The position numbers and the translations under genes were made by a program. Under the pieces are notes generated by a model. It saw nothing but the letters and a program-made list of their open reading frames with translations, had not been told where the DNA came from and ran no database searches. From positions 17,690,413 to 17,754,412 of the forward strand of contig OY804589.1 of the NCBI GenBank assembly GCA_963680875.1: DNA of 64,000 nucleotides. The letters are read 5' to 3'. Position 1 is the first letter of the stretch. Every line of letters begins with the position of its first letter. Of the stretch, positions 22,701 through 52,500 are shown piece after piece. The DNA comes from Bathymodiolus brooksi. Lineage: Eukaryota; Mollusca; Bivalvia; Mytilida; Modiolidae.

Positions 22701-25019
22701 TAGTCAAACTTTATACCAAGAAAGTGCGGGTATCTCTACGCTTGTTCTTCAATCTAGTCAAACCTAATACCAGGATAGTGCGGGTATCTCTACGCTTGTC
22801 CCTCAATCTAGTCAAACTTAATACCAGGATAGTGTGGGTATCTCTACGTTTGTCCCTCAATCTAGTCAAACTTAATACCAGGATAATGTGGGTATCTCTA
22901 TGCTTGTCCCTCAATCTAGTCAAACTTAATACCAGGATAGTGTGGGTATCTCTACGCTTGTCCTTCAATCTAGTCAAACTTAATACCAGGACAGTGCGGG
23001 TATCTCTACGCTTGTCCCTCAATCTAGTCAAACTAAATACCAGGATAGTGTGGGTATCTCTACGCTTGTCCCTAAATCTAGTCAAACTTAATACCAGGAT
23101 AGTGCGGGTATCTGTACGCTTGTCCCTCAATCTAGTCAAACTTAATTCCAGGATATTGCGGGTATCTCTACGCTTGTCCCTCAATCTAGTCAAACTAAAT
23201 ACCAGGATAGTGTGGGTATCTCTATGCTTGTCCCTCAATCTAGCCAAACTTAATACCAGGATAGTGCGGGTATCTCTACGCTTGTCCTTCAATCTAGTCA
23301 AACCTAATACCAGGATAGTGCGGTTATCTCTACGCTTGTCCCTCAATCTAATCAAACTTAATACTAGGATAGTGTGGGTATCTCTACGTTTGTCCCTCAA
23401 TCTAGTCAAACTTAATACCAGGATAGTGTTGGTATCTCTATGCTTGTCCCTCAATCTAGTCAAACTTAATACCAGGATAGTGTGGGTATCTCTACGCTTG
23501 TCCTTCAAACTAGTCAAACTTAATACCAGGACAGTGTGGGTATCTCTACGCTTCTCCCTCAATCTAGTCAAACTTAATACCAAGATAGTGTGAGTATCTC
23601 GACGCTTGTCCCTCAATCTAGCCAATATTTAATACCAGGATAGTGCGGGTATCTCTACGCTTGTCCTTCAATCTAGTCAAACCTAATACCTGGATAGTGC
23701 GGGTATCTCTACGTTTGTCCCTCAATCTAGTCAAACTTAATACCAGGATAGTGTGGGTATCTCTACGCTTGTCCCTAAATCTATTCAAACTAAATACCAG
23801 GATAGTGTGGGTATCTCTACGCTTGTCCCTCAATCTAGTCAAACTTAATACCAAGAAAGTGCGGGTATCTCTACGCTTGTTCTTCAATCTAGTCAAACCT
23901 AATACCAGGATAGTGCGGGTATCTCTACGCTTGTCCCTCAATCTAGTCAAACTTAATACCAGGATAGTGTGGGTATCTCTACGTTTGTCCCTCAATCTAG
24001 TCAAACTTAATACCAGGATAATGTGGGTATCTCTATGCTTGTCCCTCAATCTAGTCAAACTTAATACCAGGATAGTGTGGGTATCTCTACGCTTGTCCTT
24101 CAATCTAGTCAAACTTAATACCAGGACAGTGCGGGTATCTCTACGCTTGTCCCTCAATCTAGTCAAACTAAATACCAGGATAGTGTGGGTATCTCTACGC
24201 TTGTCCCTAAATCTAGTCAAACTTAATACCAGGATAGTGCGGGTATCTGTACGCTTGTCCCTCAATCTAGTCAAACTTAATACCAGGATAGTGCGGGTAT
24301 CTCTACGCTTGTCCCTCAATCTAGTCAAACTAAATACCAGGATAGTGTGGGTATCTCTACGCTTGTCCCTCAATCTAGTCAAACTTAATACCATGATAGT
24401 GTGTGTATCTCTACGCTTGTCCCACAATCTAATCAAACTTAATACCAGGATAGTGCGGGTATCTCTACGCTTGTCCCTCAATCTAGTCAAACTAAATACC
24501 AGGACAGTGTGGGTATATCTACGCTTGTCCCTCAATCTAGTCAAACCTAATACCAGGATAGTGCGGGTATCTCAACGCTTGTCCCTCAACATAGTCAAAC
24601 TTAATACCAGGATAGTGCGGGTATCTCTACGCTTGTCCCTCAATCTAGTCAAACTAAATACCAGGATAGTGTGGGTATCTCTACGCTTGTCCCTCAATCT
24701 AGTCAAACTTAATACCAGGATAGTGTGGGTATCTCTATGCTTGTCCCTCAATTTAGTCAAACTTAATACCAGGATAGTGTGGTTATCCCTACGCTTGCCC
24801 CTCAATCTAGTCAAAGTTAATACCAGGATAGTAGGGGTATTTCTACATTTGTCCCTCGATCTAGTCAAACTTAATACCAGGATAGTGTGGGTATCTCTAC
24901 GCTGGTCCCTCAAACTTTGGTTAAATATAATACCGGGATAGTGTGGGTATCTACGCTGGTCCCTTAAACTTTGAGTAAATTTAATACCTGGATAGTGTGG
25001 ATATCTCTACGCTACTCCA
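7780..25019. repeat. 54-bp satellite array
   Basis: Roughly 319 head-to-tail copies of a 54-bp unit containing CTTGTCCCTCAATCTAGTC and ACCAGGATAGTG followed by GGGTATCTCTACG. Main subtypes differ together at several sites: CTTCAATCTAGTCAAACC, CTCAATCTAGTCAAACT and CTAAATCTATTCAAACT. Because 54 = 3 x 18, one frame on each strand stays open for hundreds of codons (18-residue repeats: SLNLVKLNTRIVWVSLRL forward, TRLRDKRRDTHTILVLSL reverse). The frames break only at single-base indels, lack a consistent start, and overlap each other, so they are read as non-coding satellite. Divergence rises sharply in the last few units (24780-25019). Confidence 0.97.
8845..17916. repeat. 4536-bp higher-order repeat (84 x 54 bp) in the satellite
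   Basis: Landmarks recur at exactly 4536 bp: 9479 to 14015, 10590 to 15126, 11044 to 15580, 11843 to 16379 and 13021 to 17557. The two blocks differ by only a few substitutions. Later blocks are shortened versions: 16379 to 20267 is 3888 bp (72 units) and 15126 to 19068 is 3942 bp (73 units), as expected from unequal exchange in whole 54-bp steps. Confidence 0.92.
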
Positions 25020-25057: not shown

Positions 25058-27482
25058 CATGGAAAAAAGTGTGAGACAAACAAGAGCGTGTATAGCAACT
25101 CAGATATATACCCCATCAAAACCTCAACAAGTTATACAAAATTAAAGGTTACATGTAAGGAAAGCAGCGGAAACACATATTGATACCACCTCTAGACCAC
25201 ATGATTGTAAAATTGATTTTAAGCATGAGAATATTATTATAGCATTCAGTGCAGGAGCTCTCTTGTTATTTATGGACTGCTTCAACAACCACTTTAACAC
25301 TAGCCCACAGTTAAAACTAGTACATACAAACAAGTTTGATGAATCTCAGGAAAAATTAGTAGAAAGATCTATATCAATGGAACTAGCCTCTAAGCCTAGG
25401 CAACAATTGTATAGAATAAACATATATCATACAACATGCAAGATCGAAGTAAATGGGCGTCACATGTACCAGTTTTTAGATGAATTGAAAGTAATAGGAG
25501 AAGCCATGAAGGACATCCCAAACTTAAAACAGATGAATGATGTCATAAGAAACAAATGCCAAGAGTTCTTAAGCAAACAGAATGTACAAACAGCAGAAAC
25601 AATACTCCCACAACCAGCAAATGAAGCAAAGGCCATACTCAATGTCTGAAATGTAAAAAACAATGCTTAACCAGTTGCATCTTTTGTACCGCAGGAAAGC
25701 ACTGGATACATTTTCATTGTGATAAACTCAAAAAAGATGAGATAGCACAAGCTATAGCTAGCCCAGTAGATAAGCCAAACTTATGTAAGATTTGTGGACA
25801 AAATCAAAGTAGAACTCCTAACAACAACAATACCCTACAAACTAACAGTATATTAGGAAACAGAAATATTCTAGCTATTACACATCCTTATTCATCAGTC
25901 TAAGATAAACCAATTCATAATAGCAACAATGCCACAATAGCTATCTTAGATGAAGGAATAGATCAGAGAGGAAATGAGGACAATGTAAATGACACAAACA
26001 ACACTGTCAACAAAGTTGTGCCCATTGTGCAACAGTCAAATGCTTGCACATCTGCCAATGTCAATAACTCAAGAGAGGTTATAACCATAGATCAAAATGC
26101 ACTGACCCCACAACAAATGGGACAATGGAAGACCCAAGAAGCACTGTTAATCCTTCTAACGACACAGAATACTCAAATAAAGAACATAGACACAAGGAAA
26201 TTAAACTAAAAAAGAAGGAAGACGAACTTAAGAAATCTAAAGCCGAAATAGAGGACTGCTCAACAGACAACTATAGACTAAAATCTTACTCCCTGAAGTT
26301 GGAAGCACAAGCAAAAGAGCTTGAAAACTCAAATAGAATACTGAGAATGATAGTAGTAGGAGGTGATGATGCAGTCTACCACAACAAGGTAAATACGAAT
26401 GATAATGTGCATACCGTACCGCATTATGGATCATGACGTGAATGAAAATGTACATTATGTACAATAAAGGCAGCAAAATAGCAGCATCCAATACCCAAAT
26501 AACTCTTTGAATGAAATGAACCATCTCACAAATACAGCAGAGGTAGGATTGTTAAAGGAGCGAATATCCCATCTGGAAGAAACAAGGCTGTTATATAGAC
26601 GTATAAATGACTTGGAAGTTAATGTGATTCATCAGAACATAGATAACCTAAAAAGAACAGTAAATAACATGAATCACATTACACAGAATCATGCTCCGGT
26701 TACCCAGCCATTTGTACCTCAACCAGTCCAGCCAGTGTACCAACAAGGACAAAACTATTATCCGCAAGCATATAGCTACACTCATATGGCCACCTATATC
26801 AGACCACCATCCCCGGCATACTACAGACCTCCAATTCATCCAACACATCCAGCAGCATAATATGCAAATTTTGGTGATGGTCACATAGTACAAGGAGTGA
26901 GAACAAACATAAACAACACTGTGATAGGTCAATGGTCACCAATAAATCACCAGCAGGGTGCTACAGCCTCACACAATAACCAACAACAACATAAAGCAAG
27001 GGTTGAATTACATAAATTGGAACCAACAGGAATGAATCACACAAGAGAGGACAAAACACCAGAAATACAAGGAGTCAATTGTAATAAGATTGAGGATAAA
27101 TCAAGCTCAAACTTACCCCATACTTATCCGGGGAACACGAATATTCAAGAAATGGCTAGATATAGTGTCACTGATAGTAATAACGATCAACTATACAAAA
27201 AACCTGAATGCCACGAGGAGAAAGGCAAAATTAATGCTCACTTGGAACAAGACAAGTTAACAGGAGCCACACATGCCTAAATTGGGACATGAAGATGTAA
27301 ATATACAGAATACTAACATTTTAGATCTTAACCAAGTAAGAGGCGAGAGAGAAAATGAAATATTAGAGTCTAGGCAGTACAAGGATAGGGAACAGCAATT
27401 ACCAGATAGTAACGGTGCAGCAGAAAAAAATACAGAAAGCTATTGTTTAGACCAGGCCAGTCATCTAATGGAAAGGGGATAG
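25058..27482 (+). pseudogene. LINE ORF1, frameshifted
   Basis: Putative nucleic-acid-binding ORF1 protein. From the ATG at 25058 the frame meets a TAA near 25147, then reads on to 25649 through a segment with RINIYHTTCKIEVNG, a type of sequence I associate with bivalve retroelement ORF1 proteins. After a shift, a PHD-like finger follows (25643-25903), with a stop at 25901. The same frame continues to 26209 as a hydrophilic linker. Another shift leads to a Lys/Glu-rich coiled coil (26125-26436), a second coiled coil with a Pro/Tyr/Gln-rich tail (26507-26860), and Asn/Gln-rich hydrophilic sequence to 27482. At least four lesions disrupt it. Assignment as ORF1 rests mainly on its position ahead of the endonuclease and on the finger plus coiled-coil design. 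Confidence 0.75.
25643..25903 (+). other. PHD-like zinc finger segment of LINE ORF1
   Basis: The frame starting at TGT 25643 encodes CLKCKKQCLTSCIFC, then GKHWIHFHC, then CKIC about 30 residues later. The pattern C-x2-C, C-x2-C, W-x-H-x2-C, C-x2-C matches the C4HC3 layout of PHD fingers, although the first spacing (7 residues) is shorter than usual. PHD fingers are known in ORF1 of some CR1-like LINEs. The ligands are intact, but the frame is offset from the N-terminal part, so the decay is by indel rather than loss of the finger itself. Confidence 0.65.
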
Positions 27483-27502
27483 TAAAGGGTGAACACAGCA
27501 AC

Positions 27503-28024
27503 ATGTACAGAAACATTGCCACATTCAACTGTAAAAATATTTTAAATAGTTCAAATTGTATTAAAGCATTGCAAAAACTGGCACATGTAATTTGTCTACA
27601 AGAACATTGGCTTTTCAACTTCGAACAGAACTTAGCAGAAAAAATTACGAGTAATCTCAAATTTAAAATAAAATCTGTAGATGATAATAATCCAATTCCA
27701 TCCACTCAAAAACCAAGAGGTTATGGGGGCACTGCAATTGCTTGGAAGAAAGAGATTGATCATCTTAATGACGACAATATAGAAGAGGAGAATGAACGTA
27801 TCGTTTGTATAAGGATAAAAGCAAAACCAAAACCAATTCTTATTGTATCAGTTTACATTCCATGCAGAGGGAATCGGTCCGGGGATGAGGAATATAAGGA
27901 ATGCCTGGATATTTTATTTGAAATAACTAGGAAATATCATATAGATCATAGAATCATTCTAAGTGGAGATTGGAATTGTGTCTTGACGGGAAATGTCTCC
28001 CCAAGACAGAAAAAAAAGATATGA
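27503..28024 (+). pseudogene. LINE ORF2: AP-endonuclease domain, N-terminal part
   Basis: From the likely ORF2 start ATG at 27503, the frame shows the landmarks of an exonuclease-endonuclease-phosphatase fold endonuclease, which nicks target DNA for target-primed reverse transcription. They are NIATFNCKN at the N-terminus, the metal-binding Glu in ICLQEHWL, the conserved RGYGGTAIAW, VSVYIPC, and GDWN with the catalytic Asp/Asn. The frame stops at 28022-28024, just before a 785-bp insertion, so the rest of the domain lies beyond it (from 28829). The open frame extends 20 codons upstream of 27503 to 27443, but the methionine at 27503 sits next to the domain start. Confidence 0.85.
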
Positions 28025-28038
28025 TTATAATCTAACGA

Positions 28039-28823
28039 TTATGAAGTCTCCCAAACCGGCCACTGATAACCGGTTAAACAAATAAATTAAAAGCTACCTT
28101 TGAAATCGAACAATGTTGAATTTTTGCGGTATTGTGGCGACAATTTTGAACATGGCGAACGGTAGACATTTTTCAATGTCGGGAATCAATTCGGGACATC
28201 ATTATCTACCCACATATTAAATTTTGATGATATCGGACAATGGTGAATTTTTGCGGTATTGTGGCAGCCATTTTGCAAATGGCGGCCGGTAGAAATTTTT
28301 CAATGTCGGGAATCAATTCGGGACATCATTATCTACCCACATATCAAATTTGGATGATATCGGACAATGTTGAATTTTTACCGCCCATTTTTTATACCGT
28401 GTTTTGGCAGCCATTTTCAAAATGGCAGACATCTGGAAAATTTTGAAAACGCAGAATTGCTCCTCTAATGGTGACCTATCACTATGTCAAATTGTATTTC
28501 TATCATTGTCCATTTAGAAGTTTTCAACATTAATGTACGAAATTTCAACTTTCCCATAGGATTCTATAGTAACCCCCACCCCATTTGAACCCCTCAAAAT
28601 ATGACTTTGACCCCATTTACCACAAAGCTGAAAATTTTAGGACCAACTCGAAACATATATCTATAAATCCACCAAGTTTCATGAAATTCTGTCCAGTTGT
28701 TCCTGAGATCTGCCGTGGACAAGTTCATGTGCCAAAGAAAGAAAGGAGAAGAAAGAGAATAATAATAAGAAACGGAGCAAAAACAATAAGTCTCCCAAAT
28801 TTTTAACTTTGTTTGGGAGACTT
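28039..28823. mobile_element. Nested non-autonomous element with hairpin 3' end (first)
   Basis: It interrupts the LINE endonuclease. Near the left end is AAGTCTCCCAAA (28044-28055); the right end is its exact reverse complement (28812-28823), and a third copy at 28788-28799 pairs with it to form a 12-bp stem with a 12-nt loop. The interior has a 127-bp tandem repeat (anchors at 28111, 28238 and 28365). TAACGA occurs just outside both ends (28033-28038 and 28823-28828) and may be a target-site duplication, though it overlaps the last element base. The 68- and 73-residue open frames inside are not convincing genes. The superfamily is not recognised. Confidence 0.7.
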
Positions 28824-28828
28824 AACGA

Positions 28829-29040
28829 GTAGCATTCCTACAAGAATGTGGATACCTCCATAAAGCAACAGAGCATACCTTCACGCATCCAAATGGTCAT
28901 GATTGTTCCACAATAGACTATAGTCATTAAACTAGATTTATTACCCGATAACACCTCGGACCACTACCCATTAATCACACAACTGGTCACTAGCCTAGAT
29001 ATTAAGGAAACTATGAAGAAAAAAACCTGGATTTACTAGA
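28829..29040 (+). pseudogene. LINE ORF2: AP-endonuclease domain, C-terminal part
   Basis: Resumes after the insertion. One frame reads EHTFTHPNGHDCSTIDY, the usual T-x-H-x-NG... (S/T)xIDY block near the end of LINE endonucleases. It is followed in another frame by NTSDHYPLITQL, whose SDH holds the catalytic His. A stop after IDY and a TAG at about 29037 show decay. Both catalytic blocks are recognisable, so the insertion did not delete the domain core. Confidence 0.75.
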
Positions 29041-29495
29041 ACAAACTGGGAAAAAGTAGACAAATATGATTATCAACAGATTTTGACAGCTAAATTAGAG
29101 AAAATCTCCTTTGAGCAAAACCATGAACATATTGACACCCAAACACTCATGGATATATTAATAGAGGCTAGCCAAGAGGTAGCTCCGAAACGTACCAAGC
29201 GTAAAGCGAAGCATATGAATATCTGGAATGACGAAATAGCGATTGCTTTAAAAAGCAACAAGAAAGCATTATATGAATGGAAAATAAATGGCAAACTGCA
29301 AGACGGACCATTGAAAGATCAGAAAAAGAGCCTACTAAAGCAAAACTTAGAGGAGCCCAGAGGCGTGACATTGCCCTCCAAAGGAACATGAATATGGAAG
29401 AAATCATGAACGCCCAATTCAGAGATAGTAAGACATTTAACAAACTCCTACAGAAAAAGACCTTCAGTTCAGATAGAAGAACTCATAGTTGGTGA
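29041..29495 (+). pseudogene. LINE ORF2: linker between endonuclease and reverse transcriptase
   Basis: Reads from TRTNWEKVDKYDYQQ through a Lys-rich helical region (29083-29391) with APKRTKRKAKHMNIWNDEI. A frameshift near 29330 then moves to the frame ending at 29495 (LQRNMNMEEIMNAQFRD, TFNKLLQKK). Such basic helical linkers, with a W-N-D/E motif and ending in F-x-KLLxK, join endonuclease and RT in many LINEs. A stop at 29495 precedes a short gap before the RT domain. Confidence 0.7.
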
Positions 29496-29586
29496 TTAGA
29501 CATATACAACACCTGAGAACATCATAGAAGGCTGGAAAAAAACACTCTGAGACACTAGCAACACCAGCAAAAAATGATACTAAAAA

Positions 29587-30957
29587 CTACACCAATACTG
29601 AATTCGACTTAGATCTTATATATGAAATATACACAGAAATGAATAATGAACTTAATTTCTCTGAAAAAGAATTAGAGGAAGCAATTAGATCCTTAAATTC
29701 AAACAAGGCCCCAGATGTATATGGCCTAACAGCAGAGCATCTTACGTATGGAGGTAGTACACTTGTCAATTACCTAACTGAGCTCCTTAATAATACTTGC
29801 AAGGCTGACAGCACCCCGGACCTTATCAAATTAGGAATATTATCACCAGTATTCAAGCGTAAAGGATAAAAAAAAATGAGGCAAAAAATTACAGAGGAAT
29901 AACAGTACTTCCGGTAATAGGCAAATGTTTAGAGTTTCTATTACATAATAGAATTAGAGAAATTGTAGATAAACTACAAAATAGGCTACAGAAAGGTTTC
30001 ACCCCTAAGGTTGCTCCATTGTACTGTGCCTTAATCTTATATGAATGTATCCTAGAAGCGTTAGACAAGAAAATTCCCATCCACGTCGCTTTCCTTGATG
30101 CAAAGGCAGTTTTTGATGTTGTAGGTCATGCAAATCTGTACAGGAAGTTATTCTTATCGGGAGTAAGAGGAAAATTGTGGCTCCTCACATACCATCTGAG
30201 TCAGGGAGCAGAAACATCAGTAAAATGGCAAGGTATTGCAATGGATCCATTCGCCGTCTCTCAAGATGTGCGCCAGGGAGGTGTTCTTAGCACCGATTTA
30301 TATAAGCTATACATAAATCCACTGCTAGACCAAATAGAGGATATAGGTATGCAGATAGGAACAATTCCCTGCTCGGCACCAACATGTGCAAATGACGTCT
30401 CATTAATAGCAGATAGCGAACAAAAACTCCAAATCTTAATTGACACGGTAGTAAACTACAGTAAACAAGAAAATTATAAATTACAACCTGCAAAGAGTGC
30501 AGTAATGTCTTTCAATACAAATATGGAAAACCCTGGTTATGACCACACTATCAACAATGAGTCCATACAAAAGCCAAATACTATAGTTCATCTAGGAATC
30601 ACTCATCACAGAAACTATTGGAAAACAACATCTACACAAATCCAAGAAAATATGGAAAAATCCAGGCACACATTGCATAGTCTCTTGGGAGCTGGGTTAC
30701 ATGGGAAGAATGGACTAAACCCAACAGCTTGTCTACATCTATTGCAAGTCTATCCTATTCAGACATATGGGCTAGAAATATTACTTCCATCTAGGACTGA
30801 GCTTCAAACTTTGGAAATATTTTATCCAAAAATACTAAAGCAGATACTTTCAATCCCAACAAATACAGCAGATCCAGCCGTTTACATCCTGGCAGGTATG
30901 ATACCGATAGAAAGCCGGATACATGTAGGACAACAAATTCAACTGAAAGGGAAATAG
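29587..30957 (+). pseudogene. LINE ORF2: reverse transcriptase domain, active site altered
   Basis: RNA-templated DNA polymerase of the LINE. Motif order: LNSNKAPDVYGLTAEHL and LGILSPVFKRKG up to a stop at 29869 in a run of A; a shift then gives YRGITVLPVIGKCLE; motif A is FLDAKAVFDVV (first catalytic Asp present); motif B is QDVRQGGVLSTDLY; motif C reads CANDVSLIADS where xADD is expected, so the first catalytic Asp of that pair is Asn; a thumb-proximal QPAKSAVM follows. It ends at a TAG at 30957. The frame from 29868 to 30957 is otherwise unbroken (over 350 codons), so this part decayed less than ORF1. Confidence 0.9.
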
Positions 30958-32399: not shown

Positions 32400-32642
32400 G
32401 TCAAACAACGAGGACGAACTTTATCTTAATCATGCAAACTTACCCATACGAAATAACAATATCCATTCAATAAATATTCGCGATCCCGATGCCTAAAATA
32501 TAAATAATAGTCCATTCATACACACATACGCGCTGTGCTACTCAGACGGCTGTATACGCATCACGAATGAAATAACAACTGAACAAGAAAAACTAAATCA
32601 TGAGCAGCACATAGAAAATCTAATAAATATACATACAAACAA

Positions 32643-33285
32643 CTGGTGTCTTAGGACATTAATACTAACTAGAGCCTTGTATCAGACAGTATACTGGTGT
32701 CTTAGTCATAAACACAAACAGAAGCCTTGTATCAGAGAGTACACTGGTGTCTTAGACATTAATACTAACTAGAGCCTTGTATCAGACAGTACACTGGTGT
32801 CTTAGTCATAAACACAAACTAGAGCCTTGTATCAGAGAGTACCCTGGTGTCTTACACATTAATACAAACTAGAGCCTTGTATCAGACAGTATACTGGTGT
32901 CTTAGTCATAAACACAAACTAGAGCCTTGTATCAGAGAGTACACTTGGTGTCTTAGACATTAATACAAACTAGAGCCATGTATCAGACAGTACACTGGTG
33001 TCTTAGTCATAAACACAAACTAGAGCCTTGTATCAGAGAGTACACTGGTGTCTTAGACATAAATACTAACTAGAGCCTTGTATCAGAGTACACTGGTATC
33101 TTAGTCACAAATACTAACTGGAGCATTGTATCAGACAGTACACTGATGTCTTAGTCATAAATACTAACTAGAGCCTTGTAACAGACAGTACACTGGTGTC
33201 TTAGTCATAAATACTAATTAGAGCCTTGTATCAGACAGTACACTGGTGTCTAAGTCATAGTACCAATTAAACCCTGGTACAAGAT
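32643..33285. repeat. 50-bp tandem array with 100-bp dimer structure
   Basis: About 12 copies of a 50-bp unit with CTGGTGTCTTAG and GAGCCTTGTATCAGA (spacings 51, 50, 50 at 32643, 32694, 32744 and 32794). In the left part two subtypes alternate: TCATAAACAC with CAGAGAG, and ACATTAATAC with CAGACAG, so the effective period is 100 bp. The right part loses the alternation and decays near 33240. Confidence 0.93.
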
Positions 33286-34676: not shown

Positions 34677-36446
34677 TCTTTCACAGTGTTTGACTCTTTT
34701 GCTCATTCCTTTCTACACTGTCAATGCTTGCTTACTTTTAGTAAATACAAAATTACCTCCCTTTGACCAAATTCTAAGAAAAATAGTTCCGGATGATGCG
34801 AAATGTGGGTCAAATAATTTGTTATTGAATAGGTATTTATCATTGTTGCAGTATCATTTAAGGATACGGCCTATATATTTTACTATGAAATACATTTCAA
34901 ATACTGCCATGACATGGATGTATATCAATAAATCGACAACAATTTACTTCAGAAATTGAAAACAATTATGTGGGAAAATGCTTATAGTGTAGCTTGTCTT
35001 ACCCAGGAGCCTGTGTAAGATTGAAAAATCTTTTTCCACCTAAATTAACGGACTACTTTATCCAAGGGGTGAGAAATGTTAAGTACATCTACATACAAAT
35101 CAAACTGAATATAAAATATACTCACTCAGGTATATGGAAGTAAAAAAGGATCATAAAATTTGCTTAAACTCAAGAATATTAACAAGAAGAGTTTGAAGAT
35201 ACCAAAGGGGTAATCATAATCTGTATATCGAAGAAGAACAGACAACACAATGGCCAAAAGAAAAAGAACAAAAGGACAAACATCGATCTACAAAACATAA
35301 ACTTAAAGGAAAAGACCAGTCAGTTGAACAATTGTTATAATTCAATACATTGTAACTTTTTATTTGTAAATAACTAATTATTAAACAAAAAACATCTTTA
35401 TTAACATTAATATGCCCAATTAAAAATAGGAATATTTGGAATTTCCTGTCGTAGTGTAAGCGGACATTACACCTCTTCATGTGACGTCACACAGTCCGTT
35501 CCTATTATTTGAATAAATAATCTATCTGACTCTTCCCAACATCGTGCCCTCTTGGTTATGTTTTAATATCAGATCAACTGCAATACAATGTTTACAATTG
35601 TATACCGTCCTCATTTTTTTCTTAATATTCCCATTCCATGTTACATTTTCATAAAACAAATGAGTTTATTAGTGTAGTTGGGAGGGGTATCTACGTATAA
35701 TTTCATGTTTTACGTGAATGTCCGTAGGTTAAATAACTGTCAGTTTTAACCTATTTTATGCATATACATGTTTTTTTTCTTTTTTGTTGCCAATGCTATC
35801 GTACTTTCCCGTGTTTTTCGTGGTCACTGGTCGATGTGTTGACAAGGATAGTCCTGACCGGTAATTATAAAAAAAAATCTTCTCACACTTTCCCTTTTCG
35901 TGCTTTAGTGTAATAAAATGCTTGACATGAAGCCATAATGATATTGTAAATATCAAAAGATAAATATACAACGTTATTTTACGATTTACATAATTTTTAA
36001 TGATAAAATTGCACTTGATCAATGCTGATATATTATACCATACCGATTGTACGACGTCAGAGGCAGGATAAATCTGATAATGGATTATGCATTTTGTCTC
36101 CTCCACATTGAAGAGTTTTGTAAAATGGCGGTCCCCATTATCTGGTGCTACAGGCAACTTCAATCACCAAATTCTACCTTACAGTATACTATTTTTTAAC
36201 ATGCATTAGCACAAATGTCTTTTATTTACTGTCATTTAAATTTTCACACTAACTTGTTAAGACCATGGCCTTTTCCTTTAAAACTAAAGATTGAGTAGCA
36301 CGAACCACATTAAAAACCGAGGGTGAACTCAGTTCTTGCTCCACTAGTAGCACCCGTCATGTTAATCTAGTTACAAACCCGGTGTTAAGTCGTCAATGAG
36401 GAGAAGAATAGGAAGTGTTTACGACAAGTGGAACAATATGCTTTAC
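34677..36446. other. Non-coding region downstream of MIF exon 2
   Basis: AT-rich with no recognised gene. On the minus strand this is intron 2 territory or beyond for the MIF gene. I searched it by eye for exon 3 (Tyr-Ile start, Asp-Val-Gly near the end) and did not find it. GTTTGAAGATACC at 35191 is a lone terminal motif of the MITE family at 41255. A 135-codon minus-strand open frame (35756-36163) has no recognisable domain. Confidence 0.55.
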
Positions 36447-36616
36447 CTGTCTTTAGGAATGCCTAGGTTTTTCTCAATGAATGCTGCTACTTCAACAGCA
36501 TGTTCACTTTTCTTTCCCCCTAATGCACCAATACTGTATACTTCTACACTACCACACAAATCTGTTGACCCACCAGGACTCAACATCTGATCTGGGTGTA
36601 CTCTAACTGTCACATA
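36447..36616 (-). CDS. MIF: MIF homologue, exon 2
   Basis: Minus-strand exon of a macrophage migration inhibitory factor homologue, a trimeric tautomerase-fold cytokine with innate immune roles in animals. It encodes 56 codons plus two bases: YVTVRVHPDQMLSPGGSTDL, then CGSVEVYSIGALGG and a helix ending in GIPKD(R). This aligns with human exon 2 (YIAVHVVPDQ... SIG...ISPDR). The SIG with the active-site Ile and the phase-2 exon end are kept; the human exon is 173 nt, one codon longer. The acceptor is TTTATTTCAG before TATGTG and the donor is GTAAAG after CAG. No internal stop. Exon 1 lies 3.8 kb away on the same strand; exon 3 was not found. Confidence 0.93.
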
Positions 36617-38219
36617 CTGAAATAAAAGGGGAGAAACTCATTATCTGGTACAGATGTACTCTAACTGTCACACACTGAAATACAAGAGAAACTCATTATC
36701 TGGTACAGGTGTACTCTAACTGTCACATACTGAAATACAAGAGAAACTCATTATCTGGTACAGGTGTACTCTAACTGTCACACACTGAAATACAAGAGAA
36801 ACTCATTATCTGGTACAGGTGTACTCTTATCTGTCACATACTGAAATACAAGAGAAACTCATTATCTGGTACAGGTGTACTCTAACTGTCACATACTGAA
36901 ATACTATAGGAGTAACTCATTATCTGGTACAGGTGTACTCTGTCACATACTGAAATACAACAAGAGGAGAAACTCATTATCTGGTACAAGTGTACTCTGT
37001 CACATACTGAAATAAAAGAGGAGAAACTCATTGTCTGGTACAAGTGTAGTCTGTCACATACTGAAATACCAGAGGAGTAACTCATTATCTGGTAGGTGTA
37101 CTCTGTCACATACTGAAATACAAGAGGAGAAACTCATTATCTGGTACAGGTGTACTCTGTCACATACTGAAATACAAGAGAAACTCATTATCTGGTACAA
37201 GTGTACTCTGTCACATACTGAAATAAAAAAGGAGAAACTCATAATCTGGTAGAAGTGTACTCTGTCACATACTGAAATACAAGAGGAGTAACTCATTGTC
37301 TGGTAGAAGTGTAGTCTGTCACATACTGAAATACCAGAAGAGTAACTCATTATCTGGTAGGTGTACTCTGTCACATACTGAAATACAAGAGAAACTCATT
37401 ATCTGGTACAAGTGTACTCTGTCACATACTGAAATACTAAAGGAGTAACTCATTATCTGGTACAGGTGTACTCTGTCACATACTGAAATACAAGAGGAGT
37501 AACTCATTATCTGGTACAGGTGTACACTGTCACATACTGAAATACAAGAGGAGAAACTCATTATCTGGTACAGGTGTACTCTGTCACATACTGAAATACA
37601 GGAGAAACTCATTATCTGGTACAAGTGTACTCTGTCACATACTGAAATACAAGAGGAGAAACTCATTATCTGATACAGGTGTACTCTGTCACATACTGAA
37701 AAACAAGAGGAGAAACTTATTATCTGGTACAAGTGTACTCTGTCACATACTGAAATGCAAGAGGAGTAAATCATTATCTGGTACATGTGTATTCTGTCAC
37801 ATACTGAAATACAACAAGAGGAGAAACTCAATATCTGGTACAAGTGTACCCTGTCACATACTGAAATACAAGAGGAGAAACTCATTATCTGGTACAAGTG
37901 TACTCTGTCACATACTGAAATACAAGAGGAGAAACTCATTATCTGGCATAGGTGTAGTCTGTCACATACTGAAATACAAGAGGAGTAACTCATTATCTGG
38001 TAGGTGTACTCTGTCACATACTGAAATACAAGAGGAGAAACTCCTTATCTGGTACAAGTGTACTCTGCCACATACTGAAATAAAAGAGGAGAAACTCATT
38101 ATCTGGTACAGGTGTACTCTGTCACATACTGAAAACCAACAGGAGAAACTTATTATCTGGTACAAGTGTACTCTGTCACATACTGAAATACAAAAGAAGA
38201 AACTTATTATCTGGAACAA
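36617..38219 (-). repeat. Intronic array of 54-55-bp units carrying the MIF exon-2 splice acceptor
   Basis: About 29 tandem units fill the exon-proximal part of MIF intron 1. On the minus strand each has TTCTCCTCTTGTATTTCAG followed by TATGTGACAGAGTACACC, which copies the authentic acceptor and the first bases of exon 2. Units nearest the exon keep the exon-like GACAGTTAGAG; distal units lack four of these bases and gain three in the tract, changing the length from 55 to 54. Because 54 is a multiple of 3, a minus-strand frame stays open (SSCISVCDRVHLYQIMSF). That is an 18-residue shadow and not a protein. Confidence 0.93.
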
Positions 38220-38409
38220 GTGGCGGATCCAGGATTTTAAGTTAGGGGAGGCGTATTTTTAAAAATTGCACCGAGTGGAGGGAGGCGCTAAAATTTTTGG
38301 GGTATTTCGTGTGAAAAATCACGATTTTACGCCAAAAAATCAGATTTTTTCCAATTTTAAGGGGTCGCACGCTGGGTGTTCCCCCCCCCCCCCCCTGGAT
38401 CTGCCCCTG
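38220..38409. mobile_element. MITE-like insert (GGCGGATCCAGG ends)
   Basis: Interrupts the intronic array. The left end GTGGCGGATCCAGG is matched, inverted, by CCTGGATCTGCCCC at the right end (12 of 14 positions). It contains a 15-C run at 38381-38395. No coding sequence. No target-site duplication could be fixed. Confidence 0.65.
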
Positions 38410-38491
38410 GTAACTGATTATATAGTACAATAATACTCTTACTGTTTTGTACTGCAATTACAATGGAACAAGCTCACTATCTGGTACAGAT
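38410..38491 (-). repeat. Degenerate unit of the intronic acceptor array
   Basis: TACTCTTACTG, TGTACTGCAATTACAA and CTCACTATCTGGTACAG follow the array unit in order with many changes. The array therefore extended beyond the insert at 38220, and this outer edge is the older, less homogenised part. Confidence 0.75.
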
Positions 38492-39128
38492 TAGGTACGA
38501 TAACATAACCCTCATTCCACTTGTGCTCCAGTTAGGATTATGAATCGGTCCCATTCAACGTATGGGAGCAAATTAAAATTTTAGTGGATATTTCAAATTT
38601 CTTTTTGCATATCTGGTCATAACTTATTATAAGTGTTACAATACCTGTTTCTACCTTCACGATCGATTTAGTATTCGAACATTGTTTCTTGTCCGCCATG
38701 GTATCTTACGCATACTCTCGTGATGGGTGGAGCCTATCCATATATGGATCTGAATGCAAAATATGAAAAACTTTACTACGATTGATCCAAATAAGGATAT
38801 CTCCAAAACGAGGCAAGTGCACGTGAAATAGCAACTTCGGGACTTGTAAGCAAAATGTCCGACAGAAAGAAGATTTCATGTATTCAAGTTGTCAGATGGA
38901 TGTAAGTCTACCATGGATTGATGCAGCGTTTCCTTAACACCTCAAGGTTTACCTAAATATATTTATCTTTCACCCCCGTTAATTTTTCCAACCACTTACA
39001 ACGGAATTAGGACAAAAAAACGCCTGGCGTGAATCACTCCGGGCGCTGCTCCCATACGTTGAAAGGGACCGATTGGTAACCCTCGCTGGGAGCAAAAGCG
39101 GACTGAGGGTTACGTTATCGTATCTTAA
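38492..39128. mobile_element. DNA transposon remnant with long inverted ends and 8-bp target duplication (hAT-like)
   Basis: The left end TAGGTACGATAACATAACCC and the inverted right end remain similar for about 75-80 bp, including CAACGTATGGGAGCA. GTACAGAT flanks both sides (38484-38491 and 39129-39136). Removing one copy restores a single array unit, which supports a true 8-bp duplication. An 8-bp duplication and a TAGG start fit hAT elements, but no transposase is encoded, so the superfamily is an inference. Confidence 0.75.
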
Positions 39129-39168
39129 GTACAGATGTATTCGTAGTCACATACTGAAATACAAAATG
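39129..39168 (-). repeat. Outermost remnant of the intronic acceptor array
   Basis: GTACAGATGTATTC then GTCACATACTGAAATACAA continues the unit interrupted at 38491. It still holds the minus-strand TTGTATTTCAG acceptor core. Beyond 39168 no further units are seen. Confidence 0.8.
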
Positions 39169-39246
39169 ATGCTATCAAATTTCCCCTTTTTTCTTGGATT
39201 ACCTAACAACTCATACAAGTCTATTACCAATATGGCGTTGGTGTGA

Positions 39247-40432: not shown

Positions 40433-40541
40433 AGACTCCGGCTTTCCCAATCTTTCTGCAATAAATTTTGAAGCATCAAGTACAAAATTAGGAGGAATTT
40501 TTTTCTTTAGTGAGATTTGTGTAAATTGCAAAGGTCGGCAT
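40433..40541 (-). CDS. MIF: MIF homologue, exon 1, with a one-base frameshift
   Basis: Starts with the minus-strand ATG at 40541 and reads MPTFAIYTNLTKEK. The Pro after Met is the catalytic nucleophile of MIF tautomerase and is exposed when Met is removed, so this start is preferred over the upstream in-frame Met. A run of seven A (40498-40504) then shifts the frame; one fewer A gives IPPNF... and ends ERLGKPES, with the active-site Lys in GKP. The donor is GTAAGT after TCT. The exon is 109 nt, where 36 codons (108 nt, as in human exon 1) are expected. As given, the frame stops two codons after the run. Either a homopolymer sequencing error or a true lesion; exon 2 is clean, which favours an error or a very recent lesion. 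Confidence 0.88.
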
Positions 40542-44246: not shown

Positions 44247-44399
44247 AAGTTACACTTCCGCTTGGTAATAACCCACACTTTCTCTTGGTAATAACCCACA
44301 CTTCCTCTCTGTAATGAGTTACATTTTCTCTTGGAAATAACTCACACTTCTTCTTGGTAATAACCCACACTTTCTCATGGTAGTAATTCACACTTCCTC

Positions 44400-46540
44400 T
44401 TGGTAATGAGTTACATTTCCTCTTGGTAATAACTCACCTTTCCTCTTGGTAATGAGTTACATTTTCTCTTGGTAATAACTCAGACTTCCTCTTGGTAATG
44501 AGCTACACTTCCTCTTGGTAATGAGTTACACTTCCTCTTGGTAATAACGCACACTTCCTCTTCGTATTAACTCACATTTCGTCTTAATAATGAGTTACAT
44601 TTCGTCTTGGTAATGAGTTACATTTTTTCTTGGTAGTAACTCACACTTTCTCTTAGTAATAACCAACACTTTTCCTTGGTAATGAGTTACATTTTCTCTT
44701 GGTAATAACTCACACTTTCTCTTGGTAATGAGTTACATTTTCTCTTGGTAATAACTCCCACTTCCTCTTGGTAATGAGCTACACTTCCTCTTGGTAATGA
44801 GTTACACTTCCTCTTGGTAATAACGCACACTTCCTCTTCGTATTAACTCACATTTCGTCTTAATAATGAGTTACATTTCGTCTTGGTAATGAGTTACATT
44901 TTTTCTTGGTAATAACCCACACTTTCTCTTGGTAATAACCCACACTTCCTCTTGGTAATGAGTTACATTTTCTCTTGGTAATAACTCACACTTTCTCTTG
45001 GTAATGAGTTACATTTTCTCTTGGAAATAACCCACACTTTCTCTTGGTAATAACCCCCACTTTCTCTTGGTAATAAACCCCACTTTCTCTTGGTAATGAG
45101 CTACATTGTCTCTTGGTAATAACGCACTTTCTCTTGGTAATGAGTTACATTTTCTCTTGGTAATAACCCACACTTTCTCTTGGTAATGACTTACCTTTTA
45201 TCTTCGTAAAAATCCACTTTCTCTTTGTAATAACCCACACTTTCTCTTGGTAATGAGTTACCTTTTCTCTTGGTAATAACCCACTTTCTCTTGGTAATAA
45301 CCCACACTTTCTCTTGGTAATAACCCACACTTCCTCTTGGTAATGAGTTACATTTTCTCTTGGTAATAACTCACACTTCCTCTTTCTCTTGGTAATAACT
45401 CACACTTGCTCTTGGTAATAACCCACACTTTCTCATGGTAATAACTCACACTTCTTCTTGGTAATGAGTTACATTTCCTCTTGGTAATAGCTCACCTTTC
45501 CTCTTGGTAATGAGTTACATTTTCTCTTGTTAATAACTCAGACTTCCTCTTGGTAATGAGCTACACTTCCTCTTGGTAATGAGTTACACTTCCTCTTGGT
45601 AATAACGCACACTTCCTCTTCGTATTAACTCACATTTCGTCTTAATAATGAGTTACATTTCGTCTTGGTAATGAGTTACATTTTTTCTTGGTAGTAACTC
45701 ACACTTTCTCTTAGTAATAACCAACACTTTTCCTTGGTAATGAGTTACATTTTCTCTTGGTAATAACTCACACTTTCTCTTGGTAATGAGTTACATTTTC
45801 TCTTGGTAATAACTCCCACTTCCTCTTGGTAATGAGCTACACTTCCTCTTGGTAATGAGTTACACTTCCTCTTGGTAATAACGCACACTTCCTCTTCGTA
45901 TTAACTCACATTTCGTCTTAATAATGAGTTACATTTCGTCTTGGTAATGAGTTACATTTTTTCTTGGTAATAACCCACACTTTCTCTTGGTAATAACCCA
46001 CACTTCCTCTTGGTAATGAGTTACATTTTCTCTTGGTAATAACTCACACTTTCTCTTGGTAATGAGTTACATTTTCTCTTGGAAATAACCCACACTTTCT
46101 CTTGGTAATAACCCCCACTTTCTCTTGGTAATAAACCCCACTTTCTCTTGGTAATGAGCTACATTGTCTCTTGGTAATAACGCACTTTCTCTTGGTAATG
46201 AGTTACATTTTCTCTTGGTAATAACCCACCCTTTCTCTTGGTAATGACTTACCTTTTATCTTCGTAAAAATCCACTTTCTCTTTGTAATAACCCACACTT
46301 TCTCTTGGTAATGAGTTACCTTTTCTCTTGGTAATAACCCACTTTCTCTTGGTAATAACCCACACTTTCTCTTGGTAATAACCCACACTTCCTCTTGGTA
46401 ATGAGTTACATTTTCTCTTGGTAATAAATCACACTTCCTCTTTCTCTTGGTAATAACTCACACTTGCTCTTGGTAATAACCCACACTTTCTCATGGTAAT
46501 AACTCACACTTCTTCTTGGTAATGAGTTACATTTCCTCTT
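44400..46540. repeat. 1058-bp tandem duplication (46 x 23 bp)
   Basis: Positions 44483 and 45541, and 45145 and 46203, are 1058 bp apart, exactly 46 monomers. The copies differ by few bases, for example a C/A change near 46230. The left array has no equivalent, so this arose after the flank and array were duplicated. Confidence 0.85.
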
Positions 46541-49500
46541 GGTAATAGCTCACCTTTCCTCTTAGTAATGAGTTACATTTTCTCTTGGTAATAACTCACA
46601 CTTCCTCCTGGTAATGAGCTACTCCTCCTCTTGGTAATGAGTTACACTTCCTCTTGGTAGTAACTCACATTTCCTCTTGGTAATAGCTCACATTTCGTCT
46701 TGGTAATGAGTTACATTTTCTCTTGGTAATAACTCACACTTCCTCTTGGTAATAACTCACACTTCATCTTGGTAATGAGTTACATTTTCTCTTGGTAATA
46801 ACTCACATTTCCTCTTGGTAATGAGTTACATTTTCTCTTGGTAATAGCACACACTTCCTCTTGGTAATAACCCACACTTTCTCTTGGTAATAACTCACAC
46901 TTCCTCTTGGTAATGAGTTACAATTTCTCTTAGTAATTAGTTACATTTCCTCTTGGTAATAACTCAACTTTCCTCTTAGTAATGAGTTACATTTTCTCTT
47001 GGTAATAACTCACACTTCCTCTTGGTAATGAGCTACACTTCCTCTTGGTAATGAGTTACACTTCCTCTTGGTAATAACTCACACTTCGTCTTGGTAATAA
47101 CTCACATTTCGTCTTGGTAATGAGTTACATTTTCTCTTGGTAATAACTCACACTTCCTCTTGGTAATGAGTTACATTTTCTCTTGTTAATAATTCACACT
47201 TCCTCTTGGTAATAACCCACATTTTCTCTTGGTAATAACTCACACTTCCTCTTGGTAATGAGTTACAGTTTCTCTTGGTAATGAGTTACACTTCCTCTTG
47301 GTAATCACTCACACTTCCTCTTGGTAATGAGTTACATTTTCTCTTGGTAATAACTCACCTTTCCTCTTGGTAATGAGTTACATTTTCTCTTGGTAATAAC
47401 TCACACTTCCTCTTGGTAATAACTCACACTTCATCTTGGTAATGAGTTACATTTTCTCTTGGTAATAACTCACATTTCCTCTTGGTAATGAGTTACATTT
47501 TCTCTTGGTAATAATTCACACTTCCTCTTGGTAATAACCCACACTTTCTCTTGGTAATAACTCACACGTCCTCTTAGTAATGAGTTACAATTTCTCTTAG
47601 TAATTAGTTACACTTTCTCTTGGTAATGAGTTACATTTTCTCTTGGTAATAACCCACACTTTCTCTTGGTAATGAGTTACCTTTTCTTTTGGTAATAACC
47701 CACTTTCTCTTGGTAATAACCCACATTTTGTCTTGGTAATAACCCACACTTCCTCTTGGTAATGAGTTACATTTTCTCTTGGTAATAACTCACACTTCCT
47801 CTTTCTCTTGGTAATAACTCACACTTGCTCTTGGTAATAATCCACATTTTCTCTTGATAATAACTCACACTTCCTCTTGGTAATGAGTTACATTTCCTCT
47901 TGGTAATAACTCACCTTTCCTCTTAGTAATGAGTTACATTTTCTCTTGGTAATAACTCACACTTCCTCTTGGTAAGGAGCTACACCTCCTCTTGGTAATG
48001 AGTTACAATTCCTCTTGGTAGTAACTCACACTTCTTCTTGGTAATAACCCACACTTTCTCATGGTAATAATTCACACTTACTCTTGGTAATGAGTTACAT
48101 TTCCTCTTGGTAATAACTCACCTTTCCTCTTGGTAATGAGTTACATTTTCTCTTGGTAATAACTCAGACTTCCTCTTGGTAATGAGCTACACTTCCTCTT
48201 GGTAATGAGTTACACTTCCTCTTGGTAATAACGCACACTTCCTCTTCGTATTAACTCACATTTCGTCTTAATAATGAGTTACATTTCGTCTTGGTAATGA
48301 GTTACATTTTTTCTTGGTAATAACCCACACTTTTCCTTGGTAATGAGTTACATATTCTCTTGGTAATAACTCACACTTTCTCTTGGTAATGAGTTACATT
48401 TTCTCTTGGTAATAACTCACACTTCCTCTTGGTAATAACTCACACTTCCTCTTTCTCTTGGTAATAACTCACACTTGCTCTTGGTAATAACCCACACTTT
48501 CTCATGGTAATAACTCACACTTCTTCTTGGTAATGAGTTACATTTCCTCTTGGTAATAACTCACCTTTCCTCTTAGTAATGAGTTACATTTTCTCTTGGT
48601 AATAACTCACACTTCCTCCTGGTAATGAGCTACTCCTCCACTTGGTAATGAGTTACACTTCCTCTTGGTAGTAACTCACATTTCCTCTTGGTAATAGCTC
48701 ACATTTCGTCTTGGTAATGAGTTACATTTTCTCTTGGTAATAACTCACACTTCCTCTTGGTAATAACTCACACTTCATCTTGGTAATGAGTTACATTTTC
48801 TCTTGGTAATAACTCACATTTCCTCTTGGTAATGAGTTACATTTTCTCTTGGTAATAGCTCACACTTCCTCTTGGTAATAACCCACACTTTCTCTTGGTA
48901 ATAACTCACACTTCCTCTTGGTAATGAGTTACAATTTCTCTTAGTAATTAGTTACATTTCCTCTTGGTAATAACTCACACTTCCTCTTGGTAATAACTCA
49001 CATTTTCTCTTGGTAATAACTCACATTTCCTCTTGGTAATGAGTTACATTTCCTCTTGGTAATAACTCAACTTTCCTCTTAGTAATGAGTTACATTTTCT
49101 CTTGGTAATAACTCACACTTCCTCTTGGTAATGAGCTACACTTCCTCTTGGTAATGGGTTACACTTCCTCTTGGTAATAACTCACACTTCGTCTTGGTAA
49201 TAACTCACATTTCGTCTTGGTAATGAGTTACATTTTCTCTTGGTAATAACTCACACTTCCTCTTGGTAATGAGTTACATTTTCTCTTGTTAATAATTCAC
49301 ACTTCCTCTTGGTAATAACCCACATTTTCTCTTGGTAATAACTCACACTTCCTCTTGGTAATGAGTTACAGTTTCTCTTGGTAATGAGTTACACTTCCTC
49401 TTGGTAATCACTCACACTTCCTCTTGGTAATGAGTTACATTTTCTCTTGGTAATAACTCACCTTTCCTCTTGGTAATGAGTTACATTTTCTCTTGGTAAT

Positions 49501-52500
49501 AACTCACACTTCCTCTTGGTAATAACTCACACTTCATCTTGGTAATGAGTTACATTTTCTCTTGGTAATAACTCACATTTCCTCTTGGTAATGAGTTACA
49601 TTTTCTCTTGGTAATAACCCACACTTTCTCTTGGTAATGAGTTACCTTTTCTTTTGGTAATAACCCACTTTCTCTTGGTAATAACCCACATTTTGTCTTG
49701 GTAATAACCCACACTTCCTCTTGGTAATGAGTTACATTTTCCCTTGGTAATAACTCACACTTCCTCTTTCTCTTGGTAATAACTCACACTTGCTCTTGGT
49801 AATAATCCACACTTTCTCTTGATAATAACTCACACTTCCTCTTGGTAATGAGTTAAATTTACTCTTGGTAATAACTCACCTTTCCTCTTAGTAATGAGTT
49901 ACATTTTCTCTTGGTAATAACTCACACTTCCTCTTGGTAAGGAGCTACACCTCCTCTTGGTAATGAGTTACACTTCCTCTTGGTAGTAACTCACACTTCT
50001 TCTTGGTAATAACCCACACTTTCTCATGGTAATAATTCACACTTCCTCTTGGTAATGAGTTACATTTCCTCTTGGTAATAACTCACCTTTCCTCTTGGTA
50101 ATGAGTTACATTTTCTCTTGGTAATAACTCAGACTTCCTCTTGGTAATGAGCTACACTTCCTCTTGGTAATGAGTTACACTTCCTCTTGGTAATGACGCA
50201 CACTTCCTCTTCGTATTAACTCACATTTCGTCTTAATAATGAGTTACATTTCGTCTTGGTAATGAGTTACATTTTTTCTTGGTAATAACCAACACTTTCT
50301 CTTAGTAATAACCAACACTTTTCCTTGGTAATGAGTTACATTTTCTCTTGGTAATAACTCACACTTTCTCTTGGTAATGAGTTACATTTTCTCTTGGTAA
50401 TAACTCACACTTCCTCTTGGTAATGAGCTATACTTCCTCTTGGTAATGAGTTACACTTCCTCTTGGTAATAACGCACACTTCCTCTTCGTATTAACTCAC
50501 ATTTCGTCTTAATAATGAGTTACATTTCGTCTTGGTAATGAGTTACATTTTTTCTTGGTAATAACCAACACTTTCTCTTAGTAATAACCAACACTTTTCC
50601 TTGGTAATGAGTTACATTTTCTCTTGGTAATAACTCACACTTTCTCTTGGTAATGAGTTACATTTTCTCTTGGTAATAACTCACACTTCCTCTTGGTAAT
50701 GAGCTATACTTCCTCTTGGTAATGAGTTACACTTCCTCTTGGTAATAACGCACACTTCCTCTTCGTATTAACTCACATTTCGTCTTAATAATGAGTTACA
50801 TTTCCTCTTGGTAATGAGTTACATTTTCTCTTGGTAATAGCTCACACTTCCTCTTGGTAATAACCCACACTTTCTCTTGGTAATAACTCACACTTCCTCT
50901 TGGTAATGAGTTACAATTTCTCTTAGTAATTAGTTACATTTCCTCTTGGTAATAACTCACACTTCCTCTTGGTAATAACTCACATTTTCCCTTGGTAATA
51001 ACTCACATTTCCTCTTGGTAATGAGTTACATTTCCTCTTGGTAATAACTCAACTTTCCTCTTAGTAATGAGTTACATTTTCTCTTGGTAATAACTCACAC
51101 TTCCTCTTGGTAATGAGCTACACTTCCTCTTGGTAATGAGTTACACTTCCTCTTGGTAATAACTCACACTTCGTCTTGGTAATAACTCACATTTCGTCTT
51201 GGTAATGAGTTACATTTTCTCTTGGTAATAACTCACACTTCCTCTTGGTAATGAGTTACATTTTCTCTTGTTAATAATTCACACTTCCTCTTGGTAATAA
51301 CCCACATTTTCTCTTGGTAATAACTCACACTTCCTCTTGGTAATGAGTTACAGTTTCTCTTGGTAATGAGTTACACTTCCTCTTGGTAATCACTCACACT
51401 TCCTCTTGGTAATGAGTTACATTTTCTCTTGGTAATAACTCACCTTTCCTCTTGGTAATGAGTTACATTTTCTCTTGGTAATAACTCACACTTCCTCTTG
51501 GTAATAACTCACACTTCATCTTGGTAATGAGTTACATTTTCTCTTGGTAATAACTCACATTTCCTCTTGGTAATGAGTTACATTTTCTCTTGGTAATAAC
51601 TCACACTTCCTCTTGGTAATAACCCACACTTTCTCTTGGTAATAACTCACACGTCCTCTTAGTAATGAGTTACAATTTCTCTTAGTAATTAGTTACACTT
51701 TCTCTTGGTAATGAGTTACATTTTCTCTTGGTAATAACCCACACTTTCTCTTGGTAATGAGTTACCTTTTCTTTTGGTAATAACCCACTTTCTCTTGGTA
51801 ATAACCCACATTTTGTCTTGGTAATAACCCACACTTCCTCTTGGTAATGAGTTACATTTTCTCTTGGTAATAACTCACACTTCCTCTTTCTCTTGGTAAT
51901 AACTCACACTTGCTCTTGGTAATAATCCACACTTTCTCTTGATAATAACTCACACTTCCTCTTGGTAATGAGTTACATTTTCTCTTGGTAATAACTCACC
52001 TTTCCTCTTAGTAATGAGTTACATTTTCTCTTGGTAATAACTCACACTTCCTCTTGGTAAGGAGCTACACATCCTCTTGGTAATGAGTTACACTTCCTCT
52101 TGGTAGTAACTCACACTTCTTCTTGGTAATAACCCACACTTTCTCATGGTAATAATTCACACTTCCTCTTGGTAATGAGTTACATTTCCTCTTGGTAATA
52201 ACTCACCTTTCCTCTTGGTAATGAGTTACATTTTCTCTTGGTAATAACTCAGACTTCCTCTTGGTAATGAGCTACACTTCCTCTTGGTAATGAGTTACAC
52301 TTCCTCTTGGTAATGACGCACACTTCCTCTTCGTATTAACTCACATTTCGTCTTAATAATGAGTTACATTTCGTCTTGGTAATGAGTTACATTTTTTCTT
52401 GGTAATAACCAACACTTTCTCTTAGTAATAACCAACACTTTTCCTTGGTAATGAGTTACATTTTCTCTTGGTAATAACTCACACTTTCTCTTGGTAATGA

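Follow-up and report, generated by a model that had tools for sequence, protein, structure and literature searches.

Splice-site choice has been studied mostly with two competing sites. Acceptors are also multiplied in tandem exon arrays with mutually exclusive splicing, where it is the entire exon, acceptor and donor included, that is repeated and used, and the internal repeat 1 of the Epstein-Barr virus contains repeated spliced exons. In work of Reed and Maniatis from 1986, cited in PMC5389562, 3' splice sites were reportedly duplicated experimentally and found to compete.

The closest described counterparts lie on the donor side. In the excerpted account of PMC5954066, the intron 18 VNTR of human ABCA7 takes its start at the exon 18 GT, and its 25-bp unit is present in about 12 to about 427 copies. 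Retention of one unit is found there at around 2%, gives a frameshift and a stop, and does not change with length, and longer VNTRs go with lower expression and more exon 19 skipping. For the IFI6 (6-16) minisatellite (Turri 1995), multiple splice donors are mentioned in an extract of a citing paper, PMC4526556. Here we describe an array located at an acceptor, in intron 1 of a MIF gene, and compare it with these systems.

Results

A tandem array of acceptors in MIF intron 1

The window, that is, the whole stretch of DNA analysed (64 kb, positions 17690413-17754412 of its contig), carries a MIF copy and its array as follows:

36446..36616, minus strand: MIF exon 2, 171 bp, followed by the donor GTAAAG (MIF match, comparison with paralogues)
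36617..36622, minus strand: true exon-2 acceptor TTTCAG (exon boundary)
36617..36895, minus strand: the five exon-nearest units, with four extra exon bases (unit alignment)
36617..38222, minus strand: acceptor array made up of 29 complete units (36617-38182) plus one partial unit (38183-38222) (tandem-repeat analysis, junction cutting)
38223..38411, minus strand: insertion of ~190 bp with approximate limits, found at a corresponding position in each of the four gene copies (comparison of copies)
38412..38498, minus strand: worn unit copies beside the insertion, common to all four gene copies (shuffle-tested score)
39121..39169, minus strand: most distal worn acceptor unit, common to all four gene copies (shuffle-tested score)
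40433..40541, minus strand: MIF exon 1, with seven A against six in copies A and D, 17 residues and then a stop, followed by the donor GTAAGT (comparison with paralogues)

Tandem Repeats Finder detected a direct array of period 54 on the minus strand (36607-38222, 29.9 copies, 90% matches), a unit length within the ~10-100 bp of minisatellites and VNTRs. When the array was cut at the splice junction, 29 complete decoy units were obtained, followed by the real exon-2 start at 36616. This agrees with a sequence-only reading of the same DNA, which had proposed that the exon-2 acceptor, along with adjoining exon sequence, is repeated in about 29 tandem copies, although the units measure 51-58 bp and not the 54-55 bp given there. 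TTTCAG, which that reading placed in every unit, precedes the junction in 30 of 30 cases, the real acceptor included. With at most one mismatch, TTTCAGTATGTG occurs 31 times in the window against 0.78 expected and a largest value of 4 in the shuffles; the 31st match is a lone older copy apart from the array (39148-39159). The worn copies at 38412-38498 and 39121-39169 scored 62 and 54 against the unit, the maxima of 300 base shuffles being 31 and 34, and three further stretches of the window did not score above their own shuffles. Between the array and the worn copies lies the ~190-bp insertion, which has imperfect inverted ends and is probably mobile-element-like.

Other repeats surround the MIF copy. 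The same 23-bp repeat forms flanking arrays at 952-7772 and 44252-64000 (~296 and ~858 copies, with a strong compositional strand bias), the second of which reaches the window end, and a 17-kb satellite at 7777-25013 has a 54-bp unit unlike the acceptor unit (~319 copies, 90% matches). Parts of a non-LTR retroelement were detected on the plus strand downstream of exon 2 (27413-30954), with an endonuclease/phosphatase domain at 27413-28021 and a reverse transcriptase at 29863-30954, and 32642-33259 contains 12.4 copies of a 50-bp unit with a higher period of 201 bp. Rfam gave no match in the window.

The MIF gene in the window and its linked copies

The peptide encoded by exon 1 (past its frameshift) and exon 2 of the window copy matches the Pfam MIF family (E=1.7e-16). 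The frameshift is of one base, and the seven A responsible for it are also present in copy C and in the database protein P0011, read in the same shifted frame, which makes a chance assembly error improbable. Within the 64-kb window no exon 3 turned up, and none was seen between the window exon 2 and exon 1 of copy A, where all but 12 bases were covered. With a frameshifted exon 1 and no exon 3 found, the window copy looks dead, and it lacks the intact three-exon frame that is present in copy D. Its exon 2 encodes DQMLSPGG and GALGGKK. At these places, copy D and the relatives P0002-P0004 show DQMMSHGG as well as a GALG that continues with E, D or K and then KN; the more distant P0005-P0007 are variable at some of those residues.

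A search of the genome (2.00 Gb) for MIF gave 12 listed matches, all of them on the minus strand of the window's contig, which we read as four gene copies named A, B (the window copy), C and D. In copy A, exon 1 is free of the frameshift and exon 2 lies near 17.682 Mb; the 111 kb downstream of the latter yielded no exon 3, the best DNA match being of 22 bp (E=0.008) and outside the coding part. In copy C, exon 1 is frameshifted, exon 2 lies near 18.411 Mb and exon 3 around 75 kb beyond. Copy D has three intact exons near 18.591, 18.586 and 18.579 Mb, separated by introns of 5.07 and 6.6 kb. Only two exon 3 matches are among those listed, and they were given to C and D by position. Among named relatives, the highest identity was found with Mytilus californianus (78%), followed by Pinctada (73%) and Dreissena (66%), which places the animal among the bivalves. 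The 5' flank and exon 1 of D are ~15% divergent from the other three copies, which are 1-2% apart there, while elsewhere D is much closer to them, pointing to a different history of that flank.

In all four copies the true acceptor is in register with the units. As expected of a VNTR, the number of decoys changes between close copies, here paralogues within one assembly: 52 in A, 29 in B, 342 in C (18.2 kb) and 40 in D, 463 in total, with 149 distinct sequences. The array of copy C shows in addition a higher-order period of ~12-13 units and carries units without AG.

Composition and history of the units

A unit with the four extra bases, compared with exon 2 of copy D, agrees with it at all of the first 22 positions, at 12 of the next 17 (positions 23-39) and at 5 of the 16 that follow. 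At least 12 matches to that 17-mer are found at 46 of 18,984 places in the region of D, 41 of them inside the array limits used, and the five outside include exon 2 itself. As identity to exon 2 drops to background after position 39, a unit consists of about 39 bp of the exon-2 start and about 16 bp of the intron end. The TAATGAG of the units, which corresponds to GATGAG within the exon's ATGATGAGT, falls inside this exon-like part and is thus exon-derived; it had been proposed as a possible branch point, a role that it may still have, ~25 nt ahead of each AG. Exon 2 reads ATGTTGAGT in the window copy and ATGATGAGT in the other three, whereas most window units read ATAATGAGT, so that the units preserve an older state of the exon. 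The junction is overlapped by GTATGT, which resembles a donor, in 27 of the 29 units of B and in 39 of the 40 of D, in such a way that the window units could in principle be read as chains of 54-nt mini-introns.

The order of distal unit, worn unit and insertion is identical in the four copies, and the array is therefore older than the gene duplication. Its length changes fast, as unit numbers are far apart between copies of small divergence. Between A and B, with 52 against 29 units, three stretches outside exon 2 diverge by 0.8%, 1.6% and 2.0%, and exon 2 by 2.9%; between B and C, with 29 against 342 units, the divergences are 1.0%, 3.0% and 5.3%.

It had also been claimed that the units next to the exon share its four extra bases, the array having grown outward from there. 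Counting from the exon, these bases are present in units 1-5 of B (once as ATAA), which agrees with the first part of the claim for the window. The order is loose in the other copies, with the bases in units 1-7, 23, 25, 26 and 41 of A, in units 4-8 and 338 of C, and in units 1, 3, 6, 8, 11, 15, 17 and 20 of D. There is thus a lean of the extra-base units towards the exon, but a strict outward growth is unsupported, since units of the exon type are interspersed in A and D and the three exon-adjoining units of C are without the bases. In the likeliest account, a piece made up of ~16 bp from the end of MIF intron 1 and the ~39 bp that open exon 2 would have been duplicated in tandem. The array would then have gained and lost units through unequal exchange or slippage, both before and after the duplication into four linked genes.

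Predicted outcome of decoy use and choice of the real acceptor

In copy D, 16 of the 40 decoys equal the real acceptor over positions -20 to +10, the best being identical over 59 nt, and 21 of the 40 have a pyrimidine tract at least as rich as that of the real site. The local signal therefore could not decide in D. The same identity over -20 to +10 was found in 10 of 52 decoys of A, 31 of 342 of C and none of the 29 of B, where only 4 of 29 have a pyrimidine tract as rich as the real one; in B, the local strength of the real site might decide.

Reading frames of the decoys were counted from the exon junction. With any of the 463 decoys of the four copies, splicing to it would place an in-frame stop 157 nt or more ahead of the exon-2 end and so upstream of the exon junction, as do the poison sites of regulated unproductive splicing. 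In the window, this stop comes after 9-10 codons in 21 of the 29 decoys, close to the nine or so codons first proposed, and later in the other 8, but in all 29 ahead of the exon-2 end. The arrays do not behave as mutually exclusive exons, since none of the 463 unit starts is open to the exon-2 end and the exon-2 donor is absent from the unit.

As for the products, the database protein P0001 (115 residues, on a 597-bp contig, in a cluster of 24 sequences) has exons 1-2-3 joined directly and differs from copy D at two residues. Because no intronless MIF copy is among the 12 genome matches listed, we read P0001 as the cDNA of an allele or species near D, and thus as the only sign, an indirect one, that the real site is used. 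No decoy-joined protein was found in 12 of the 13 matches of the MIF search (P0009 was left out) nor in the five matches to array peptides, where such products, being short, would be easily missed.

Discussion

Probable exon definition and tolerance of the array

We consider it fairly likely that the array is an unstable minisatellite of the exon edge, tolerated because exon definition favours the acceptor nearest the donor of exon 2. In the pre-mRNA of copy D, the real acceptor would stand next to 40 decoys, of which 16 are locally the same, and it would be chosen because it alone leads directly into the whole exon of 171 nt, with that exon's 5' splice site at a normal distance. Splicing to a decoy would bring a premature stop and, probably, decay of the RNA, so that the array would at most lower the yield and could be close to neutral. 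The available part of PMC9225289 reports that in long-intron settings, which by its introns of 5.07 and 6.6 kb would apply to D, the sites closest across the exon are favoured. The overall preference in that excerpt is for upstream 3' sites, long introns merely reducing it, and by analogy this counts against the exon-definition reading. In its favour, the accessible portion of PMC5389562 describes duplicated globin 3' sites that are spliced, inefficiently, to the distal one only. Near-neutrality has in turn against it that variability in the acceptor block is lower than elsewhere in the unit, a difference that would not be expected from neutrality alone.

The sequence-only reading had left two options, an array that tunes productive MIF mRNA or one tolerated by strict choice of the proximal site. 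Proximal choice fits better; tuning is unsupported in the window copy, as its exon 1 is frameshifted and its exon 3 was not found, and it can be asked in copy D, which is intact and has its own array of 40 decoys.

Alternative explanations

The array could act as a governor of splicing, in which decoys compete for the spliceosome and divert MIF pre-mRNA to nonsense-mediated decay, array length setting the MIF dose; we regard this as improbable. The stop in all 463 decoys is what it would require, but this follows from the repetition of one unit. None of the 121 decoys of A, B and D has lost its AG, against 56 of 342 in the frameshifted C, 52 of them reading TTTCAA; the losses of C look like one amplified change. 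Moreover, in 91 of these 121 units (the 30 with other gap placement were left out), substitutions of 7 kinds fall in the 16 columns of the acceptor block and of 42 kinds in the remaining 38. Such a low value is equalled by 3 of 54 circular windows, and 20 of the 54 columns have no substitution, so selection on the acceptor block is suggested as a hint only, and a weak one for a governor, given that it is shared by B, which is broken, and by A, which apparently is too. The lower expression of ABCA7 with longer VNTRs agrees with control by length, whereas its unit retention, unchanged by VNTR length, does not (both in the excerpt of PMC5954066), nor does the lack of decoy-joined proteins among the 12 of 13 and five database matches, though these would be short. 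In its extreme form, with decay in proportion to decoy number, MIF output would evolve rapidly and the 342 decoys of copy C would be a silenced state, an outcome that we think has little chance of being true.

Equally doubtful is that all arrays, that of D included, are decaying by-products of a dying gene family whose working MIF lies elsewhere. Three of the four copies do look broken, B and C by frameshift and A and B by an exon 3 that was not found, but D is intact in its three exons, P0001 equals D save for two residues, and the 12 MIF matches listed are all on one contig.

We find it very hard to maintain that a dispersed satellite entered MIF intron 1 and resembles the exon by chance, as the ~39-bp match is to the coding start of a conserved gene and in register with the true acceptor. 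Two genome searches with the unit gave at least 35 and at least 56 matches, all those listed lying at copies A, B and D. Each search scored three of its four first-look candidates; as common words were skipped, these searches undercount, which leaves some room for the satellite, and the array of copy C was unlisted, its 342 units being located only by way of its MIF exon. A repeat dispersed independently of the exon, which the sequence-only reading had named as evidence against itself, was not seen in these searches, where unit matches were listed at MIF copies only. Five database proteins (P0014-P0018) contain array-like peptides, two of them on 54.5-kb contigs. In P0016, units adjoin a repeated peptide that is unrelated to them and was not found in the four gene copies, as could be expected of a dispersed satellite, but the sense part of this protein fits window units 22-24 best. 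P0014 and P0018 seem to be mixtures of sense and antisense units, and the arrangements in P0014, P0016 and P0018 could be either chimaeric assembly or real rearrangement. An array search with the antisense frame gave no match. The unit pattern matched one viral contig over 20 bp, which was judged to be chance, and a scan of bacterial and archaeal contigs for MIF gave 72 pattern matches and no relatives.

An assembly artefact, at least in the array lengths, is the least credible explanation, since the 463 units comprise 149 distinct sequences, the internal period differs between arrays and array peptides occur on other contigs (P0014-P0018), even if there is a single assembly and the 342-unit length depends on it.

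Comparison with known systems

One gene family in one genome offers series of 29, 40, 52 and 342 acceptors that are almost alike in pyrimidine tract, AG and first exon bases, a natural test of site choice. In copy D, where many decoys are locally indistinguishable from the real site, the discriminating factor would have to lie further off, in the downstream donor, the length of the exon, enhancers or kinetics. An exon edge can also seed a satellite, seemingly without killing the gene, and the array might conceivably control MIF dosage.

Tandem multiplication of acceptors is shared with mutually exclusive exon arrays and with the internal repeat 1 of the Epstein-Barr virus; unlike in both, only the first ~39 bp of the exon are repeated here, without its donor. 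As in the duplicated 3'-site experiments, identical 3' splice sites with different exon lengths attached would compete, with 30 to 343 natural sites per MIF copy instead of two man-made ones. The IFI6 minisatellite also has units carrying splice sites of the adjoining exon, which act there as alternative sites; in the extract of PMC4526556, however, these are donors downstream of the exon and are retained in the mRNA, whereas the MIF units carry acceptors and so fall outside the donor-side kind to which IFI6 and ABCA7 belong. The closest likeness is with ABCA7, in which an intronic tandem repeat adjoins an exon, includes its splice site and has a strongly variable length, and the use of a unit site brings a stop. 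According to the excerpt of PMC5954066, the ABCA7 array is on the donor side, its effect on splicing has been measured, and its unit is described without exon sequence; the MIF array is on the acceptor side, with exon sequence in ~39 of 54 bp, occurs in four paralogues and is known from sequence alone. The claim that no acceptor amplified to this scale had been described holds for the open-licence literature searched, where no acceptor-side array of splice sites was among the papers listed, but it has to be qualified by the donor-side counterparts ABCA7 and IFI6. The MIF array therefore extends donor-side VNTRs such as that of ABCA7 to the acceptor side: the donor-side kind was already known, and what is new here is the acceptor side, the inclusion of exon sequence, the presence in four paralogues and a number of sites of up to 342.
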